DNA from: Halorubrum salinum
GTDB lineage: Archaea; Halobacteriota; Halobacteria; Halobacteriales; Haloferacaceae
Length of the DNA stretch: 64,000 nt
Direction of reading: 5' to 3'
Assembly: GCF_024494575.1 (NCBI RefSeq)
Contig: NZ_JANHDO010000002.1
Location: forward strand, 372,001 to 436,000
Shown: positions 29,849-37,200 of the stretch, piece after piece
Layout: every line of letters starts with the position of its first letter
How positions within the stretch are numbered: position 1 is the stretch's first letter
The notes under the pieces: model-generated
Seen by the model: the letters and a program-made list of their open reading frames with translations, nothing else
Told to the model about the DNA's origin: nothing
The model's database searches: none
Made by a program: the position numbers and the translations under genes

Positions 29849-32329
29849 CTACGCTCCCGTCACGCGCACCGCGAAAGCGTCCCACGCGCCGTGATACCGC
29901 TCCCACAGCAGCACTGCTGGCGGGAGGGCGACGACGGTGAACGCGAACGAGTAGGCCACGCTCAGCGCCATCAACAGACCGAAGTCGCCGAGCACCGGCG
30001 TGATAGCGAGCGCGAGCGCGCCCGTCCCGAGCGAGGTGGTGAGCATGCTCCCGAGGAGGGCCCCGCCGGTCCCGGAGAGCGTGATGACCATCGACTCGTA
30101 GGCGTCCGCGCCCGCGTTGAACTCGTCGATGAACCGGTGGGTCGCGTGCACCGAGTAGGCGATCCCGAGCCCGATCGAGATTGAGAGAATCGTCGCCGTC
30201 AACGCGTTCAGCGACATGCCGAGGTACCGCATCGTTCCGAGGAGGAACGCGATCGCGATCAGGATCGGAAAGAGGTTCACGATCCCGAGAAGCGGCTTGC
30301 CTTCCAAGGTGGCGTACGCGATGACGAGGAACACCCCCGTCAGCGCCATGGCGAGGATCAGCCCCTGGATCGCGGAGTTGAAGATGATGTCCGTCACCGC
30401 GTCGAAGACGACGAGCTGACCGGTCGCGGTCGCCTCATACCGGAAGTCGTCAGCGAACTCCCGAGCGTCGACGGCCGCCTCGGCCTGTGACGCGCTGGAG
30501 TCGATCGCGTAGTCGACCTGCGCGCTCCGCCGGTCCGGCGTGAGGTACTGTTCGGCGCGGTCGCCGGCCGACGAGGCGAACAGCGCGTCGTATATCCGGC
30601 CGAGGTTGCGGTCGGGGATCCCGTCGCCGTCGACGTCGTTGCGGGCGACCAGCGCGGCGAACTCGGGGTCTCGCTCGGCGTGTCCCCGAATCACGGTCAC
30701 GATGCTGGTCGGTTGGGCGCTCCCGCCGTCGCCGACGGCGAGCGCGCCCGTCGCGTCGTCGTTCGGGTCCGCGAGCGCCTCAAGCGCGTGGCCCTCCTCG
30801 AAGTTCCCCTCGACGTACAACTTCACCGACTGGTCTTGGTTCGTCGAGAAGCGGTCTTCGAGCAGGTTCAGCGTCTCGGTGACGGTGTACTCGCTCGGCG
30901 CGAACGGTTCCGGAAGCCCGGTCACGTAGTCGGGCTGTTCCTCCGGCGGGAGGAAGTCCTCGGTCTCGAAGGAGGTGTCCACGCCGCTGCCGTACGCCGC
31001 GGCCATCCCGCCGGTCACGAGCAACACGACGACGAACGCGACCGGCGCGTACCGGCTGACCTGCGCCGGGAACGTCAGGAGTTTCCCCAGCGTCGACTCC
31101 TCCGAGGAGATCGGCGCGGAGTTGAACTCGGGGACGCCGTACCGCTCTCGAAACCGGTCGACCTCCAGTTTCGCCGCCGGGAGAAACAGCCCGAAGATCA
31201 GGAAGGTGAAGATGATCCCGATCCCCGAGGCGAGCCCCATGTTCCGGATCGGCCCGAGGTCGGAGATGACGTTCGCGCCGAACCCGAACACGGTCGTCAC
31301 GGTGACGATAATGAAGGCGATCATCAGCTGGTTGTTCGCCTCGCGCATCGCCTCGGTGGCCTCGTAGCCGTCGACGACCTCCTCGCGGTAGCGGTTGATG
31401 ATGTGGATCCCGAAGTCCACCCCGACCGCGAGCAGCAGCACGGGAACCGCGATGAGCTGCTGGCTGAACGGGATCCCCGAAAATCCGAGGAAACCGAACG
31501 TCCAGACGACGGTCATCAGGAGCGACAACAGCCCGAGCGCGAGGTCGATCGGGTCGCGGTAGGCGACGACTAAGAACAACAGCAGCAACAACACGACGAC
31601 GGGCATCACGATGGTGAGCGAGTCGCCGATGACGTTCGCCGTCTCGGCGTTCGTGACGCCGCTGCCGAACGCGGTTATCTCGCCGGGTTGGTCCGCCGCG
31701 ATGGACCGGATCGTCGTCTGGATGTCCTGGAGGTCACCGCTAGAGAACCCCGCCGGGACGTCGTGTGAGACGACCGTGATCGACGCCGATGCGCTCGCGC
31801 TCGTCGGGTTGAAGTCCGTCGCGAGCGTCCCGGTGAACCGCGGGTTCTCGGAGAGGTCGCGGACGGTCTGCCGGACGCGGGTCGCGCTCGTCGACTCCAT
31901 CGCGCGCCGCTGTTCGGCCGCCGTGGTCGCCGAGGGGTCGAGCCGCTGGGCGACGACCGTGGCCGGGCCGTTCGCGGAGGCGACGCGGAGGTCGTCTCGC
32001 GACTCTATCTCCTCTAAGACCCGTAGGTCCCTGAGGAGCGCCTCCTTCGTCAGGACGTTACCTCCCGAGTGTATGAGCTGCGTCGACTCGCTTTCCGGTT
32101 CGAACGGGTCCTCGAACTCCTGGTTGACGGCGTCGAGCGCCTCCTGCTCGTCGAGGCCCTCGGTGAACGAGTCGGTCGCTTCGGTGTCCGTGCTGACGAG
32201 CCCTATTCCGCCGGCGAACACCACCGTGAGCACGAGGAAGACGACGATGACTCGGCGCGGGCTGTCGACGATCGCGTCGTTGAGTCGCCGCGTCCACGCC
32301 TCGGTCTGCTCGCCGAGCGACCGCGACAT
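29849..32329 (-). CDS. RND/MMPL-family transporter
   Basis: 826 residues with the two-half RND plan: TM1 near 27-48 (RRVIVVFLVLTVVFAGGIG), a large extracytoplasmic loop (about 50-225), helices 2-6 in about 230-400 including LAVGVDFGIHIINRYREE (SSD-like charged helix), then a second TM, loop (about 455-665) and five further helices with ISIGLGIAYSVHATHRFIDE. Such proteins export lipids or hydrophobic compounds, or handle sterol-like substrates. The S-layer-like gene upstream ends 3 bp before this ATG, so the two are one operon; a TetR gene is divergent. Confidence 0.9.
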   Translation of the reverse strand: MSRSLGEQTEAWTRRLNDAIVDSPRRVIVVFLVLTVVFAGGIGLVSTDTEATDSFTEGLDEQEALDAVNQEFEDPFEPESESTQLIHSGGNVLTKEALLRDLRVLEEIESRDDLRVASANGPATVVAQRLDPSATTAAEQRRAMESTSATRVRQTVRDLSENPRFTGTLATDFNPTSASASASITVVSHDVPAGFSSGDLQDIQTTIRSIAADQPGEITAFGSGVTNAETANVIGDSLTIVMPVVVLLLLLFLVVAYRDPIDLALGLLSLLMTVVWTFGFLGFSGIPFSQQLIAVPVLLLAVGVDFGIHIINRYREEVVDGYEATEAMREANNQLMIAFIIVTVTTVFGFGANVISDLGPIRNMGLASGIGIIFTFLIFGLFLPAAKLEVDRFRERYGVPEFNSAPISSEESTLGKLLTFPAQVSRYAPVAFVVVLLVTGGMAAAYGSGVDTSFETEDFLPPEEQPDYVTGLPEPFAPSEYTVTETLNLLEDRFSTNQDQSVKLYVEGNFEEGHALEALADPNDDATGALAVGDGGSAQPTSIVTVIRGHAERDPEFAALVARNDVDGDGIPDRNLGRIYDALFASSAGDRAEQYLTPDRRSAQVDYAIDSSASQAEAAVDAREFADDFRYEATATGQLVVFDAVTDIIFNSAIQGLILAMALTGVFLVIAYATLEGKPLLGIVNLFPILIAIAFLLGTMRYLGMSLNALTATILSISIGLGIAYSVHATHRFIDEFNAGADAYESMVITLSGTGGALLGSMLTTSLGTGALALAITPVLGDFGLLMALSVAYSFAFTVVALPPAVLLWERYHGAWDAFAVRVTGA

Positions 32330-32332
32330 CGG

Positions 32333-33991
32333 TTACTGCCGCCTCCTGTAGAGGACGAGCGCCCCCGTCCCGACGACGAGGAGCGCCACGACGATGACCG
32401 GCAGCGGCAGCCCGCCCTCCTCGCTCTCGGTCACGTCGATCGGGACGCGGTAAGTGTCGGTGAGCTGGCTGTCGCCGTCGGCGTCGTCGTACCGGAAGTC
32501 GAACGAGACGGGGTAGGTGCTCCCGGCCGTCGCGGAGCCCGTGGTGGTCAGCTCGAAGGTCATCGTCGTGGTCTCGCCGGGGTCGAGCGACTGGACGTAC
32601 CCCGTGTCGGTGGTGCCGGTGTCCAGCGGGTCGTCGGCGAACAGGCGGGCCTCCACGTCGCTCGCGGGCTCGTCGAGGTTGTTCGTCACCGCGACGTCGA
32701 CGGTGCGGGTCCCGCCGGACGGGATGGTTCGGTTCTCGATCGCGACGTCGAACCGGTCGCGCTCGGGGGCGACCTCGGCGTCGACGACCAGTTCCTCGAA
32801 GACTCGGGACTCGCCCTCGTCGTTGCGGTACTGGACCGCCATGTCGAGCGAGCGCAGCCCGGCCTCCGCCTCGCCGCCGATCGCGATCGGCAGCGAGAAG
32901 TTGGCGGACTCGCCGGCGCCGAGCGTCCCCACGGCGGTCGACCGCTCCGCGGGAAGCACGCTCTGGTCGTCGCCGGCGTACCGCACGACGACGCTCTCGG
33001 CCCGAACCGGGCCGTCGTTGCGGACGGTACCGACCAGGTCACCGTCCTCGGCGACGCGGAGCTGTGAGTCCACGTCGGTGAGCGCGAACTCCTGTTCGGC
33101 GAGCGGGAGGACGCCGAGCGAGAGCCCGTCGTCGGTGCGGGTGATACCGTCGGGGTCCTCGAACGCGACGGAGCCGGAGAGGGTGTACTGCTGGACCGGG
33201 AGGTCCGATGCGACGCCCACGTCGTAGGCGACCGTCGCCGTTTCGCCCGGACCGATCTCCGGGACGCGGACCGTGTCGGACTGGCCGCCGCTCACGGTGA
33301 CGCTGTTGCTCTGCGTGCTGAAGGTCACGTCCGCGCTGCGGGCCGTCTCCGCGCCGACGTTCTCGATCGTCGCCTCGACGGTGCCGCTGTCGCCGACCTG
33401 CGTGTCGCTCTCGACGTCGACGACCTGGAAGCGGGCGTCGTCGCGGACGCGGAGGTCGACCTGTCGAGACACCGTCACGGTGCGGTCCTCGCCGGAGGAG
33501 TAGTACGCGTAGGTGAGGTCGAGATCGAGCGTGTACGTGCCGGGGTCGACGCCCTCGGGAACGTTGAGGCTCACCGGGACCGACCCCGGCGCGGTGGTCG
33601 TCACGCCGCCGATCGCGGTCTCGCCGGACTCGACGGAGAGCGGCCCCGACGCCTCGGCGTCGACCCGGACGTTCCGCGCGGTGGTCGCCGTCTCGGCCGC
33701 GGCCGGGCTGCCGAACCGGAGGTTCCCGTCGTTGGCGATCGTCAGCTCGACCTGGTTCGTCCGACCGGGGACGAGGTTCGGGTTCGAGACGAACACGTCG
33801 AGGTCGGGCGACCCGCCGACGTTCGAGGCCTGCGCGGGTGCCGCGCCGCCGGCGATCGCAGCGGTTCCGGCCGGCGCGTCGCTCGCGCCGGCCGACGTCC
33901 CGGCCAACTCCGCGCCGACGGCACCCGCGCCGACGCCGCTCGCGAGCAGCAGGGCGCTCACGAGGATCGCGGTCAGCGTTCGCGTCCGCAT
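32333..33991 (-). CDS. S-layer-like (COG1361/CARDB) surface protein
   Basis: 552 residues. Signal peptide MRTRTLTAILVSALLLASGV, then several CARDB/alpha-macroglobulin-like beta repeats (DNVGAETARSADVTF, VRNDGPVRAESVVVRY, VTNNLDEPASDVEARL), a C-terminal acidic linker and a single TM helix near 525-547 (LPLPVIVVALLVVGTGALVLY) ending RRRQ. Family members often stand next to RND transporters, as here, where the transporter follows 3 bp downstream. Likely a surface-anchored adapter for the exporter. Confidence 0.85.
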   Translation of the reverse strand: MRTRTLTAILVSALLLASGVGAGAVGAELAGTSAGASDAPAGTAAIAGGAAPAQASNVGGSPDLDVFVSNPNLVPGRTNQVELTIANDGNLRFGSPAAAETATTARNVRVDAEASGPLSVESGETAIGGVTTTAPGSVPVSLNVPEGVDPGTYTLDLDLTYAYYSSGEDRTVTVSRQVDLRVRDDARFQVVDVESDTQVGDSGTVEATIENVGAETARSADVTFSTQSNSVTVSGGQSDTVRVPEIGPGETATVAYDVGVASDLPVQQYTLSGSVAFEDPDGITRTDDGLSLGVLPLAEQEFALTDVDSQLRVAEDGDLVGTVRNDGPVRAESVVVRYAGDDQSVLPAERSTAVGTLGAGESANFSLPIAIGGEAEAGLRSLDMAVQYRNDEGESRVFEELVVDAEVAPERDRFDVAIENRTIPSGGTRTVDVAVTNNLDEPASDVEARLFADDPLDTGTTDTGYVQSLDPGETTTMTFELTTTGSATAGSTYPVSFDFRYDDADGDSQLTDTYRVPIDVTESEEGGLPLPVIVVALLVVGTGALVLYRRRQ

Positions 33992-34172: not shown

Positions 34173-34235
34173 ATGGAACCGAGAGACCGGGAGTTCGAGA
34201 CGGGCCGGCGGTCGGCGTGTGGGGGCGCGCAGTGA
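34173..34235 (+). CDS. Possible 20-aa leader peptide ORF overlapping tetR (GTGA)
   Basis: ATG 34173 lies at the predicted start of transcription (TATA near 34138-34147). The 20 codons (MEPRDREFETG...) end in TGA 34233-34235, which overlaps GTG 34232, the likely tetR start. The tetR GTG has no clear GGAGG, so it may depend on translation of this ORF. Confidence 0.35.
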   Translation: MEPRDREFETGRRSACGGAQ

Positions 34236-34942
34236 CGCGGTTCTCCGAGGAGGACCGCGAGCGCATCCGCGCGGATCTGATCGACGCGGGCCACGACCTG
34301 TTCGCGAGGTACGGGTTCGACCGGACGCGCGTGAGTGACGTGACGGACGCGGCCGGGATCGGGACGAGCACGTTCTACCAGTTCTTCGACTCGAAGGAGG
34401 CGCTGTACCTCGCCGTGCTGATCGCCGAGCGCGGGCGGCTGTTCGAGACGTTGGAGGCCGAGGTCGCCGCCGCGGAGACGCCCCGGGAGGAGGCGGAGAC
34501 GATCCTGCGGACGACGCTCGGACAGGTGCGGTCGAACCCCCTCATCCGGCGGCTGTTCGTCGATGGCGAGATCCGGCGGATCGACGAGCGGCTGAACGGG
34601 ACGAGCTACGACGACACGCACGACTCCGGAGGCGACGGGGAAACGGTCGGATGCGGCGACGGCGGCGACCACACCGCAGACAGCGGCGAGCGGGTCGCCT
34701 TCGACCGGGTGTTACCGCAGCCGGACGAGTGGGTCGAACGGGACGACTTCCGGATCGACGATCCGGAGGTCGTCCGCGGGCTCATGCGGTCGCTGCTCTT
34801 CGTCACGCAGGCGCGGGAGACGCCCGTCGTGCCGGACGGGACCTACGACGAGGTCGAGGAGGCGCTGATCGAGACGGTCATCGAGGGGCTGTTCGCGGAC
34901 TCACGAACGAAATCGCACACAGACTCACAAACGGAGCCGTGA
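34232..34942 (+). CDS. TetR/AcrR family transcriptional regulator
   Basis: 236 residues. N-terminal HTH (LIDAGHDLFARYGFDRTRVSDVTDAAGIGTSTFYQFFDSKEALYLAVL, canonical TetR) then a ligand-binding helical domain with an acidic/Gly-rich insertion (about 128-160). The start could be GTG 34232 or GTG 34217; the first is preferred because it begins just before the HTH and overlaps the leader ORF. Divergent from the S-layer/RND operon across an inverted repeat, so it probably represses this operon and itself. Confidence 0.88.
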   Translation: MTRFSEEDRERIRADLIDAGHDLFARYGFDRTRVSDVTDAAGIGTSTFYQFFDSKEALYLAVLIAERGRLFETLEAEVAAAETPREEAETILRTTLGQVRSNPLIRRLFVDGEIRRIDERLNGTSYDDTHDSGGDGETVGCGDGGDHTADSGERVAFDRVLPQPDEWVERDDFRIDDPEVVRGLMRSLLFVTQARETPVVPDGTYDEVEEALIETVIEGLFADSRTKSHTDSQTEP

Positions 34943-35031
34943 GCGGGGGCGGCGGCCGAGGCGAGTCGCGTCCGCCGGAACCGCCGTGACGCCAACCCTT
35001 AGGCCTCCGCGAGCACGACGTGACCGCGTGA

Positions 35032-35979
35032 ATGTCTCGCGACTCCGACGGTACCGTCCTCCTCTTCGATCCCGACCCCGAGCGGGCGTCCGAGTACGCG
35101 GCGTGGCTCGACGCGCACGCGGTTCGCATCGCGGCGGACGTCGAGAGCGGGCTCGACGCGCTCGACGACGAGATCGACGTCGTGCTCCTCGACGCCGGAC
35201 TCATCGAAGCTGATCCCGCCGCGACGGTCGGTCGGATCCGCGCCCGCAACGGGGACTGTCAGATCGGGCTGCTGTCGGGGGACACGAGCGGTCTCTCCGT
35301 CCTCGGCCTCGACGTCGACGAGTACGTCCCGCGGCCGATCGACCGCGAAGAGCTTCGCGAGACGGTCGCCCGGCTCGTCGATCACGGCGCGGTCGAGGGA
35401 GCGCTCGACCGGTACCTCTCGCTCGTCGAGCGGCGTCGACGCGTCGAGGCCAGACGCGACCCCGAGGAGTTGGACGACGACGAGCGATACCGGGAGCTGA
35501 CCGGCGAGATCGCCGCCCGGCGCAGCCAGATAGACACGCTGTTGGAGCGGACGACGGGCGGGACCGACGGCGCGGACGCGGCGACCGCTGACGACGCGGA
35601 CGCCCGCCCCGCCGCCGCGGTCGAGCCCTCGAGCGTCGCGGAGCCGCCACTCTACCGCAGTCGGCCGGGAGCGTTCTACGCGCTCTGGTTCGTCGCGGCG
35701 CTCGCCTACGGCGTGGGCGACGTCGTCTCGACCCTGTACGCGACCGTCGCCGTCCCGGGGCTGATCGAGGGGAACCCCGTCGTCGGGGGACTGCTCGCGA
35801 CCGTCGGCGTCCCCGGGTTCCTCGCCTTGAAGCTCCTCGTCTTCCTCGTGTTGATATCGATCAGCGTGCAGGGGGGACGCACCCGCGAGCGGTACTCCTA
35901 CTACTGGCCGCCGGTCGCGGCGACCGGGCTCGGACTGCTTCTCACGGGGTGGAACCTCCGGCTGATCCTCGGGACGTGA
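35032..35979 (+). CDS. Receiver-HalX-membrane fusion protein
   Basis: 315 residues in three parts. Residues 8-110: CheY-like receiver with Asp54 as likely acceptor (DVVLLDAGLI), acidic residues near 13-15 and Ser82, but Arg101 where the conserved Lys should be (VPRPID). Residues about 112-175: HalX helical domain (LDRYLSLVERRRRVEARRD...ERYRELTGEIAARRSQIDTLLER). Residues about 217-315: three hydrophobic helices with ALAYGVGDVVSTLY and GNPVVGG, resembling DUF5658 integral membrane proteins. I know receiver-HalX proteins as soluble; a membrane-tethered version seems unusual. Ligand and targets unknown. Confidence 0.8.
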   Translation: MSRDSDGTVLLFDPDPERASEYAAWLDAHAVRIAADVESGLDALDDEIDVVLLDAGLIEADPAATVGRIRARNGDCQIGLLSGDTSGLSVLGLDVDEYVPRPIDREELRETVARLVDHGAVEGALDRYLSLVERRRRVEARRDPEELDDDERYRELTGEIAARRSQIDTLLERTTGGTDGADAATADDADARPAAAVEPSSVAEPPLYRSRPGAFYALWFVAALAYGVGDVVSTLYATVAVPGLIEGNPVVGGLLATVGVPGFLALKLLVFLVLISISVQGGRTRERYSYYWPPVAATGLGLLLTGWNLRLILGT

Positions 35980-36012: not shown

Positions 36013-37200
36013 TCACAGCCACTTGCGGATCCGTCGGCGGACGCGGTCGGCGAGGGCGAGGTCGCGGTCACGGTCGCGGAACCGGAACGGTTCGAGTCCG
36101 ACGGCGACGACGTAGACGGCCGTGACGACGACGACGATGACGGCGTTTATCGCCGCGACCGCGACGAACGGGTGTATCGCGTGAAGCGCGAGTATCACCG
36201 ACGCCGGGAGGAACTGGACGTACTGCCACTCGCCGACGGACCGGACGTACGCGCCGGTCTCGTTCGGTGCGTGGATCGTCACGGTCGAGGAGGCGGTCTC
36301 GCCGCGACCCGCCACCAACGCGGACCGGCTCACGTCGACGCCCGTGCTCGCGGCTTCGACGACCGCGATCCGCGGGACGAACCCGTCGTTCGTGAAGTTG
36401 TACGTGTACTCCACCGAGCCCCCCCGCTCGATGACGGTCGGGTTCCCGCTCGGCGTCTGCGAACTCACGATCGTGATGTCGTTCGTCCCCGACGGGACGA
36501 CCATGCTCGCGGTCGCCGGCACGGTGATGAGAAGCAGGATGACGACGAGCACGAGCACCGCGCTCGTCTCGCTCCGCCGGCTGCGCGACCGCTCCGACCG
36601 GTCCGGCCGCCCCCGCCCGCCGCCGCCGACCATCTCGGCGACGACGCTGTAGGCCAAGAGCAGCAGTCCGACGCCGACCATCGACGTGCCCACGTCGCCG
36701 TCGGCCAGTCCACCCAACCCCGGCACGCCGCTGAGAGCCGACGCGCCGATAGAGAACGCCTCTTGCATCCCCAAGACGAGGAGGCCGATATTCGGTATCA
36801 CCACTACCTCGCCGTCGAGTTGCAGCGCGACGGAGACGATCTGCGACTCCTGTACCGGCGGCTCCGGGCCGTCCTGATCGGTGAAGGGGTTGGCGTCGCC
36901 GCGGGTGATGTACCCCTCGTCCGTCTCGTCGACGATCCGGTGAGTCGTCAGCCCGCCCCCTTGCAGCTCCCTGGCCTCGAAGGTCACCACGTCGCCCTCG
37001 CCGACGTCGCCGGCGAGCGACGGCGGGACCGCGACGAACCCGTCGCCGGGAGCCATGTCGGCCGGCTCGGCGTTCATGCTGCCGGTGAGCACGAACCCGA
37101 GGAGGATCGGCTGACCGAGCTGTTGGCCGATCAGCATGACGACGACGAGGCCGACGAGGAGGGCGGTCGCGCCGGAGCCGGCGAGCGATCTGAGAGTCAT
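36013..37200 (-). CDS. Signal peptidase I (S26B type) fused to extra membrane domain
   Basis: 395 residues. TM1 (GATALLVGLVVVMLIGQQ) precedes the peptidase core: Ser41 in LTGSMNAEP, His87 in TTHRIVDET and Asp102 in ITRGDANPFTDQ form the archaeal/ER-type Ser-His-Asp catalytic set. The core ends near residue 175. Then follow a TM (VGVGLLLLAYSVVAEMV), an Arg-rich loop, a TM (AVLVLVVILLLITVPATA), an Ig-like beta domain (about 240-330) and further helices before a basic tail. Cleaves Sec signal peptides; the C-terminal half has no known role. Confidence 0.85.
   Translation of the reverse strand: MTLRSLAGSGATALLVGLVVVMLIGQQLGQPILLGFVLTGSMNAEPADMAPGDGFVAVPPSLAGDVGEGDVVTFEARELQGGGLTTHRIVDETDEGYITRGDANPFTDQDGPEPPVQESQIVSVALQLDGEVVVIPNIGLLVLGMQEAFSIGASALSGVPGLGGLADGDVGTSMVGVGLLLLAYSVVAEMVGGGGRGRPDRSERSRSRRSETSAVLVLVVILLLITVPATASMVVPSGTNDITIVSSQTPSGNPTVIERGGSVEYTYNFTNDGFVPRIAVVEAASTGVDVSRSALVAGRGETASSTVTIHAPNETGAYVRSVGEWQYVQFLPASVILALHAIHPFVAVAAINAVIVVVVTAVYVVAVGLEPFRFRDRDRDLALADRVRRRIRKWL

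Follow-up and report, generated by a model that had tools for sequence, protein, structure and literature searches.

The window, by which we mean the whole stretch of 64,000 nucleotides of Halorubrum salinum DNA that was analysed, carries a gene in which a receiver and a HalX domain are joined to a DUF5658-like membrane domain (35032-35979, forward strand, 315 residues). We find this order at 16 loci, in 15 genomes from Halorubrum and relatives, and the gene is always accompanied by that of a SipW-like signal peptidase. We read the fusion as a membrane-anchored response regulator dedicated to this peptidase and to a Tat-fimbria-like (TasA-type) surface-fibre module, an interpretation that stands about an even chance of being right. 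The fixed pairing of the fusion and peptidase genes, together with shared gene content, points to a common process. Given this linkage, and the Tat-fimbria-like genes in most of the loci, the protein is more likely to serve specifically in a surface-fibre system than to be a generic regulator. An earlier note on this DNA had proposed a membrane-tethered regulator; the combination of receiver and HalX with a membrane domain is borne out, but a generic role sits poorly with the constant peptidase and frequent fimbrial linkage.

The fusion is encoded by a single intact frame with an ATG start, and rests on the open reading frame, on Pfam and on 16 full-length family members. The receiver occupies residues 9-112 (35056-35367, +), as delimited by Pfam, alignment and Foldseek. 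In the window protein itself the Pfam match (residues 10-112, E 9e-5) reaches 23 bits and thus stays below the cut-off of 30.2, while Response_reg is above cut-off in the four fusion homologues scanned (35-60 bits) and receiver domains are the top PDB matches when the full model is searched with Foldseek (best E 4.6e-6). HalX (PF08663, residues 123-173, 35398-35550, +) is supported by the model and clears its Pfam cut-off in the window protein (E 3e-8, 34.3 bits vs 23.2) as well as in three of the four homologues. That HalX follows the receiver and precedes a three-helix membrane domain had already been noticed from the letters of the window, and all three parts do lie in one frame whose domain order is that of the other loci. 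According to the predicted full-length model (mean pLDDT 70.8, 12 sequences), receiver helix 5 is continuous with HalX, forming one helix at 105-141 that is followed by another at 151-175. A variable linker at residues 176-206 (35557-35649, +) is marked by its dN/dS and by a pLDDT mostly below 50, with low confidence over 177-210. The window protein matched no DNA-binding family of Pfam. By eye, a TATA-like CTTAGG lies at 34998-35003, about 30 bp 5' of the start, and other Halorubrum copies have CTTATG or a similar box at about that place, which suggests that the fusion gene has its own promoter.

The C-terminal membrane domain (residues 207-315, 35650-35976, +; Pfam, AlphaFold and alignment) is predicted by AlphaFold to comprise three long helices and one short one (mean pLDDT 89.4). 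Hydropathy gives two clear peaks in this part, the third helix being supported by the model alone. Twelve of its residues are invariant in all 16 fusions: Asp230, Ser233, Thr234, Glu246, Asn248, Pro249, Lys267, Tyr290, Tyr291, Pro293, Pro294 and Asn308. With DUF5658 (PF18902) proteins the fusion shares a small membrane domain with a G-x-G-D-x-x-S-T plus E-x-N-P signature; it differs in that the domain is joined to receiver and HalX and remains below the Pfam cut-off. A DUF5658 score was obtained in relatives alone (at best 23.2 vs 25.2 bits), and the window protein has no Pfam match to the family, for which no paper naming it was found in the literature searched. Of the 60 matches that a Foldseek comparison with the PDB gave at E <=10, none reached E <=0.001. 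The best row of a VIA-align comparison is 8g2y, a GPCR (Z 6.2, rmsd 3.8 over 98 residues; next Z 4.9), a likeness that may reflect a common helical arrangement only. Stand-alone DUF5658-like membrane proteins of about 121 residues occur across Halorubrum (L018-L035; L036:4758-5246 in the window genome), and most other members of the genus hold, among the matches listed, only the stand-alone protein and no fusion. The stand-alone gene of the window genome is divergent to an endonuclease-III-like gene (named by eye).

The membrane-domain signature is thus invariant, whereas the switch residues of the receiver erode across the family. Asp54 (35191-35193) is retained in 16/16 fusions, but only this residue and Pro102 are invariant among the eight receiver positions checked. 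Position 101 holds Lys in four fusions, Arg in eleven and Gln in one, so that Lys is lost in 12/16. Position 14, which we take to be equivalent to CheY Asp13, is Asp in twelve and replaced in four (the window, Hrr. trapanicum, the metagenome-assembled genome (MAG) B1Sed10 and G112). The window receiver lacks the full active site of acidic pair, Thr/Ser and Lys, since Lys101 is Arg (35332-35334) and Asp14, the second acidic-pocket residue, is Pro (35071-35073); three other copies (L085, L016, L017) retain the acidic pair, Asp, Ser/Thr and Lys. The earlier note was correct on Asp54 and Arg101 but overlooked the change at Asp14, and its suggestion of an altered switch holds for the family at large. 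Some members may thus signal more weakly or differently by phosphorylation, as the loss of Lys101 and Asp14 suggests, a reading that draws on the effect of a Lys-to-Arg exchange in CheY.

The search for the same domain order in other genomes, proposed together with the original observation, was carried out in several collections, and the count of 16 loci covers REC-HalX joined to the DUF5658-like domain. Among the matches listed for a set of 97 genomes, 52 of them (including the window's own) from the genus of Halorubrum salinum, full-length fusions lie at 13 places in 12 genomes, i.e., 11 of the same genus and G071 of the same order. A scan of a genome collection brought up 45 loci, of which 11 are full-length. 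Across 391 genomes of the class, the matches listed include full-length copies at 12 places in 11 genomes, among them G112 and G330 of another family, and the next best match (E 3.8e-51) covers only positions 6-178. In this set and in that of 97 genomes the full-length fusions head the list of matches. Hosts of full-length copies include Hrr. laminariae, Hrr. trapanicum, Hrr. halodurans, Hrr. californiense, a Natronomonas MAG and a MAG labelled Mollicutes, which is counted apart from G071 in the 16-locus set. This last record (B1Sed10, L086), titled Mollicutes bacterium, carries a haloarchaeal cluster, and its label is probably wrong. A plasmid or viral origin of the fusion was also considered and rejected: 23 matches were obtained among 72,556 plasmid records, none of which covers 80% of the query, and no fusion was found in the viral contigs.

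In a tree of receiver-HalX parts, the 16 fusions group in a single clade (support 100/99), apart from the 15 other receiver-HalX rows. In the tree of the membrane domain the separation of the fusions from the stand-alone paralogues as a clade of their own has a support of only 34/0, with long branches. For seven pairs, NG86 estimates of dN/dS are about 0.27-0.54 in the receiver, 0.18-0.61 in HalX and 0.09-0.28 in the membrane domain, which has the lowest value of the three domains in six pairs, while the linker gives 0.53-1.5. Receiver, HalX and membrane domain are therefore under purifying selection, and the linker is not.

Downstream of the fusion and convergent with it, 33 bp from stop to stop, lies the gene of an archaeal type I signal peptidase of 395 residues (36013-37200, -), which we call SipW-like; its match to NCBIfam TIGR02228 sigpep_I_arch (E 8.9e-11, 41.9 bits) falls below the cut-off of 51.85. 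The convergent peptidase gene is found downstream of the fusion in all 16 loci, with a stop-to-stop gap of 6-57 bp in 15 of them. In the sixteenth, that of G071, the gene of a HisKA_7TM membrane histidine kinase (L043:1523-3187) is placed between the two, and this kinase is a candidate partner of the fusion. Among the matches listed for the 97 genomes, the peptidase subtype (best match >=400 bits) occurs in exactly the 12 that have the fusion; a further 67 genomes have weaker homologues of at most ~325 bits, and 18 have no match. Bits and not identity define this co-occurrence, because short partial matches (52-59% identity over ~57-149 residues) also occur in four other genomes (G046, G042, G031 and G064). 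The single peptidase match listed for the window genome is the one paired with the fusion. In 18 loci of weaker homologues, viewed with 1.5 kb flanks, the neighbours are rhomboid-like, DUF5305-like or other genes, and no fusion lies beside the peptidase gene. A second type of cluster (L058-L075) is seen in many Halorubrum and related genomes, in which a rhomboid-like gene and the SipW-like peptidase gene are often followed by that of a DUF5305-like membrane protein (DUF5305 was assigned by Pfam in one relative, the other neighbours of the 18 loci being named by eye).

A Bat-type REC-PAS-GAF-BAT-HTH_10 regulator and a PAS histidine kinase adjoin the peptidase in three of the 16 loci (LUM.57, G071 and G112). 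Next to an intact fusion, the peptidase gene is spread over different frames in G007 (one copy of two) and in Hrr. californiense (L079:5624-6732 and L083:6994-8248), through either pseudogene formation or sequencing error. Directly upstream of the window fusion lies a TetR-family regulator gene (34211-34942, +; Pfam TetR_N, E 1.4e-13), a neighbour that only the window and Hrr. laminariae have in common among the 16 loci. Tandem genes for an MMPL exporter and a CARDB repeat protein (29849-33991) adjoin the TetR gene, and the same set is present in Hrr. laminariae.

TafE/TafC-like genes lie within 6 kb upstream of the fusion in 13/16 loci, and a DUF7344 HTH gene lies upstream in 10/16. The three loci without nearby Taf-like genes are the window, Hrr. 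laminariae and G071, where the contig holds only 506 bp upstream. The window genome keeps its TafE, lipoprotein, DUF7344 and TafC-like genes together at 343-349 kb of the same contig (G000:C2; L122:5443-9975); the fusion, at 407 kb, is about 59 kb away, and in Hrr. laminariae the fimbrial genes are likewise apart from the fusion/peptidase pair, by ~126 kb. No TafA, TafC or TafE above the NCBIfam cut-off was found in the window genome, only matches below it, and the Taf-like proteins scanned from the fusion loci are likewise all below cut-off. Tat-fimbriae (taf) clusters resemble the fusion loci in that a SipW-like peptidase gene shares the neighbourhood of fimbrial genes whose starts look twin-arginine-like by eye, an arrangement that also recalls the SipW/TasA system of Bacillus. 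However, among the matches listed for the 97 genomes, TafE exceeds the cut-off in eight; in seven of these a peptidase gene of the wider family stands no more than 5 kb from it, and none of the eight has the fusion. Canonical Tat-fimbriae therefore do without it.

HalX is a large haloarchaeal output family, with more than 550 proteins listed in PMC5847659, for which no function is known to have been documented. In the available part of that paper, the census of archaeal two-component systems gives only HalX, REC-HalX and HxlR-REC-HalX. REC-HalX regulators (PF00072-PF08663) share with the fusion the haloarchaeal order of receiver then HalX. Nevertheless, the four other HalX proteins of the window genome, read as receiver-HalX, end after HalX and keep the E-D...D...T...K site, whereas the fusion adds a membrane domain and has an altered site. 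HVO_1357, a REC-HalX-GAF-BAT-HTH10 protein, likewise carries further domains behind HalX and has a role in motility, a surface behaviour, but its last domain is a DNA-binding one, and no membrane domain is mentioned in the available portion of PMC7824242. Hybrid TTRs, i.e., membrane transcription regulators with receivers, have in common with the fusion a receiver in a membrane-anchored protein, but as far as the accessible text of PMC10269533 goes they are reported solely from bacteria, and a DNA-binding domain is part of their definition. The REC-HalX-membrane architecture was not found described in the literature searched on HalX, DUF5658, haloarchaeal SipW, Tat-fimbriae and membrane response regulators, although the main paper on Tat-fimbriae (Galeva et al. 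2025) may mention the gene.

How a membrane-anchored regulator dedicated to fibres might work can be proposed in outline. A histidine kinase would phosphorylate the receiver at Asp54, although some members may work without this step. The HalX hairpin, continuous with receiver helix 5, could then relay the change as a dimer or coiled coil, while the three-helix domain would keep the cytoplasmic switch beside the peptidase or the site of fibre assembly, such that the processing or assembly of fibre precursors would await the right signal. The narrower proposal that the receiver, through a HalX coiled coil and the DUF5658-like domain, directly gates the peptidase that matures Tat-exported fibre subunits is put forward tentatively and is rather unlikely. 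Several observations weigh against the reading as a regulator dedicated to a fimbria/peptidase module: the distance of the pair from fimbrial genes in the window and Hrr. laminariae, the erosion of Lys101 and Asp14, the canonical TafE genomes without a fusion, the sub-threshold scores of the scanned Taf-like proteins, and the copy of G007 in which an intact fusion stands beside a frame-broken peptidase gene.

The fusion could instead be a membrane-tethered transcription regulator, with HalX binding DNA and the receiver, the membrane domain or both controlling transcription of the fimbrial and peptidase genes, which we regard as possible but somewhat doubtful. The available parts of PMC5847659 and PMC6944256 suggest that HalX might be a helix-turn-helix, the Haloferax regulator mentioned above affects motility (PMC7824242), and membrane-bound transcription regulators exist in archaea according to the consulted section of PMC10269533. 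However, DNA binding by HalX is undocumented in the available text of PMC5847659, and in the predicted model HalX is a long helical hairpin that extends receiver helix 5 and includes no distinct winged or HTH fold. Moreover, the product of the separate DUF7344 HTH gene found in 10/16 loci may be the transcription factor, and within what is accessible of the survey of membrane regulators (PMC10269533) no archaeal member has a receiver.

Another explanation is a phosphorylation-independent accessory subunit, in which the DUF5658-like domain would be the working part that partners the peptidase or fibre assembly, with receiver-HalX as a decaying scaffold or dimeriser. The twelve invariant membrane-domain residues, set against two (Asp54 and Pro102) of eight receiver positions, the lowest dN/dS of the three domains in 6/7 pairs and the stand-alone relatives in most members of the genus all speak for such a subunit. 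Yet the receiver itself is under purifying selection, Asp54 is never lost, and L085, L016 and L017 retain the acidic pair, Asp, Ser/Thr and Lys; we consider this explanation quite improbable. That the fusion is due to chance or artefact, or that its gene hitch-hikes without serving a fibre system, is hardly credible, even if the window copy lies away from fimbrial genes: one frame and one domain order in 16 loci, a single clade, purifying selection and 16/16 peptidase pairing all argue against it. A frameshift or assembly join, the alternative that the earlier note had named as fatal to its observation, is in particular excluded by the identical frame and order in these loci.

In culturable Halorubrum species, the fusion links HalX with the membrane and with a single concrete process, that of signal-peptide processing and surface fibres, and HalX function thereby becomes testable. 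As an archaeal response regulator anchored in the membrane, the fusion would be of a type that the survey of PMC10269533 did not find, as far as its available text extends. If gating of the peptidase is true, fibre biogenesis would be regulated post-translationally at the membrane and not at the promoter.
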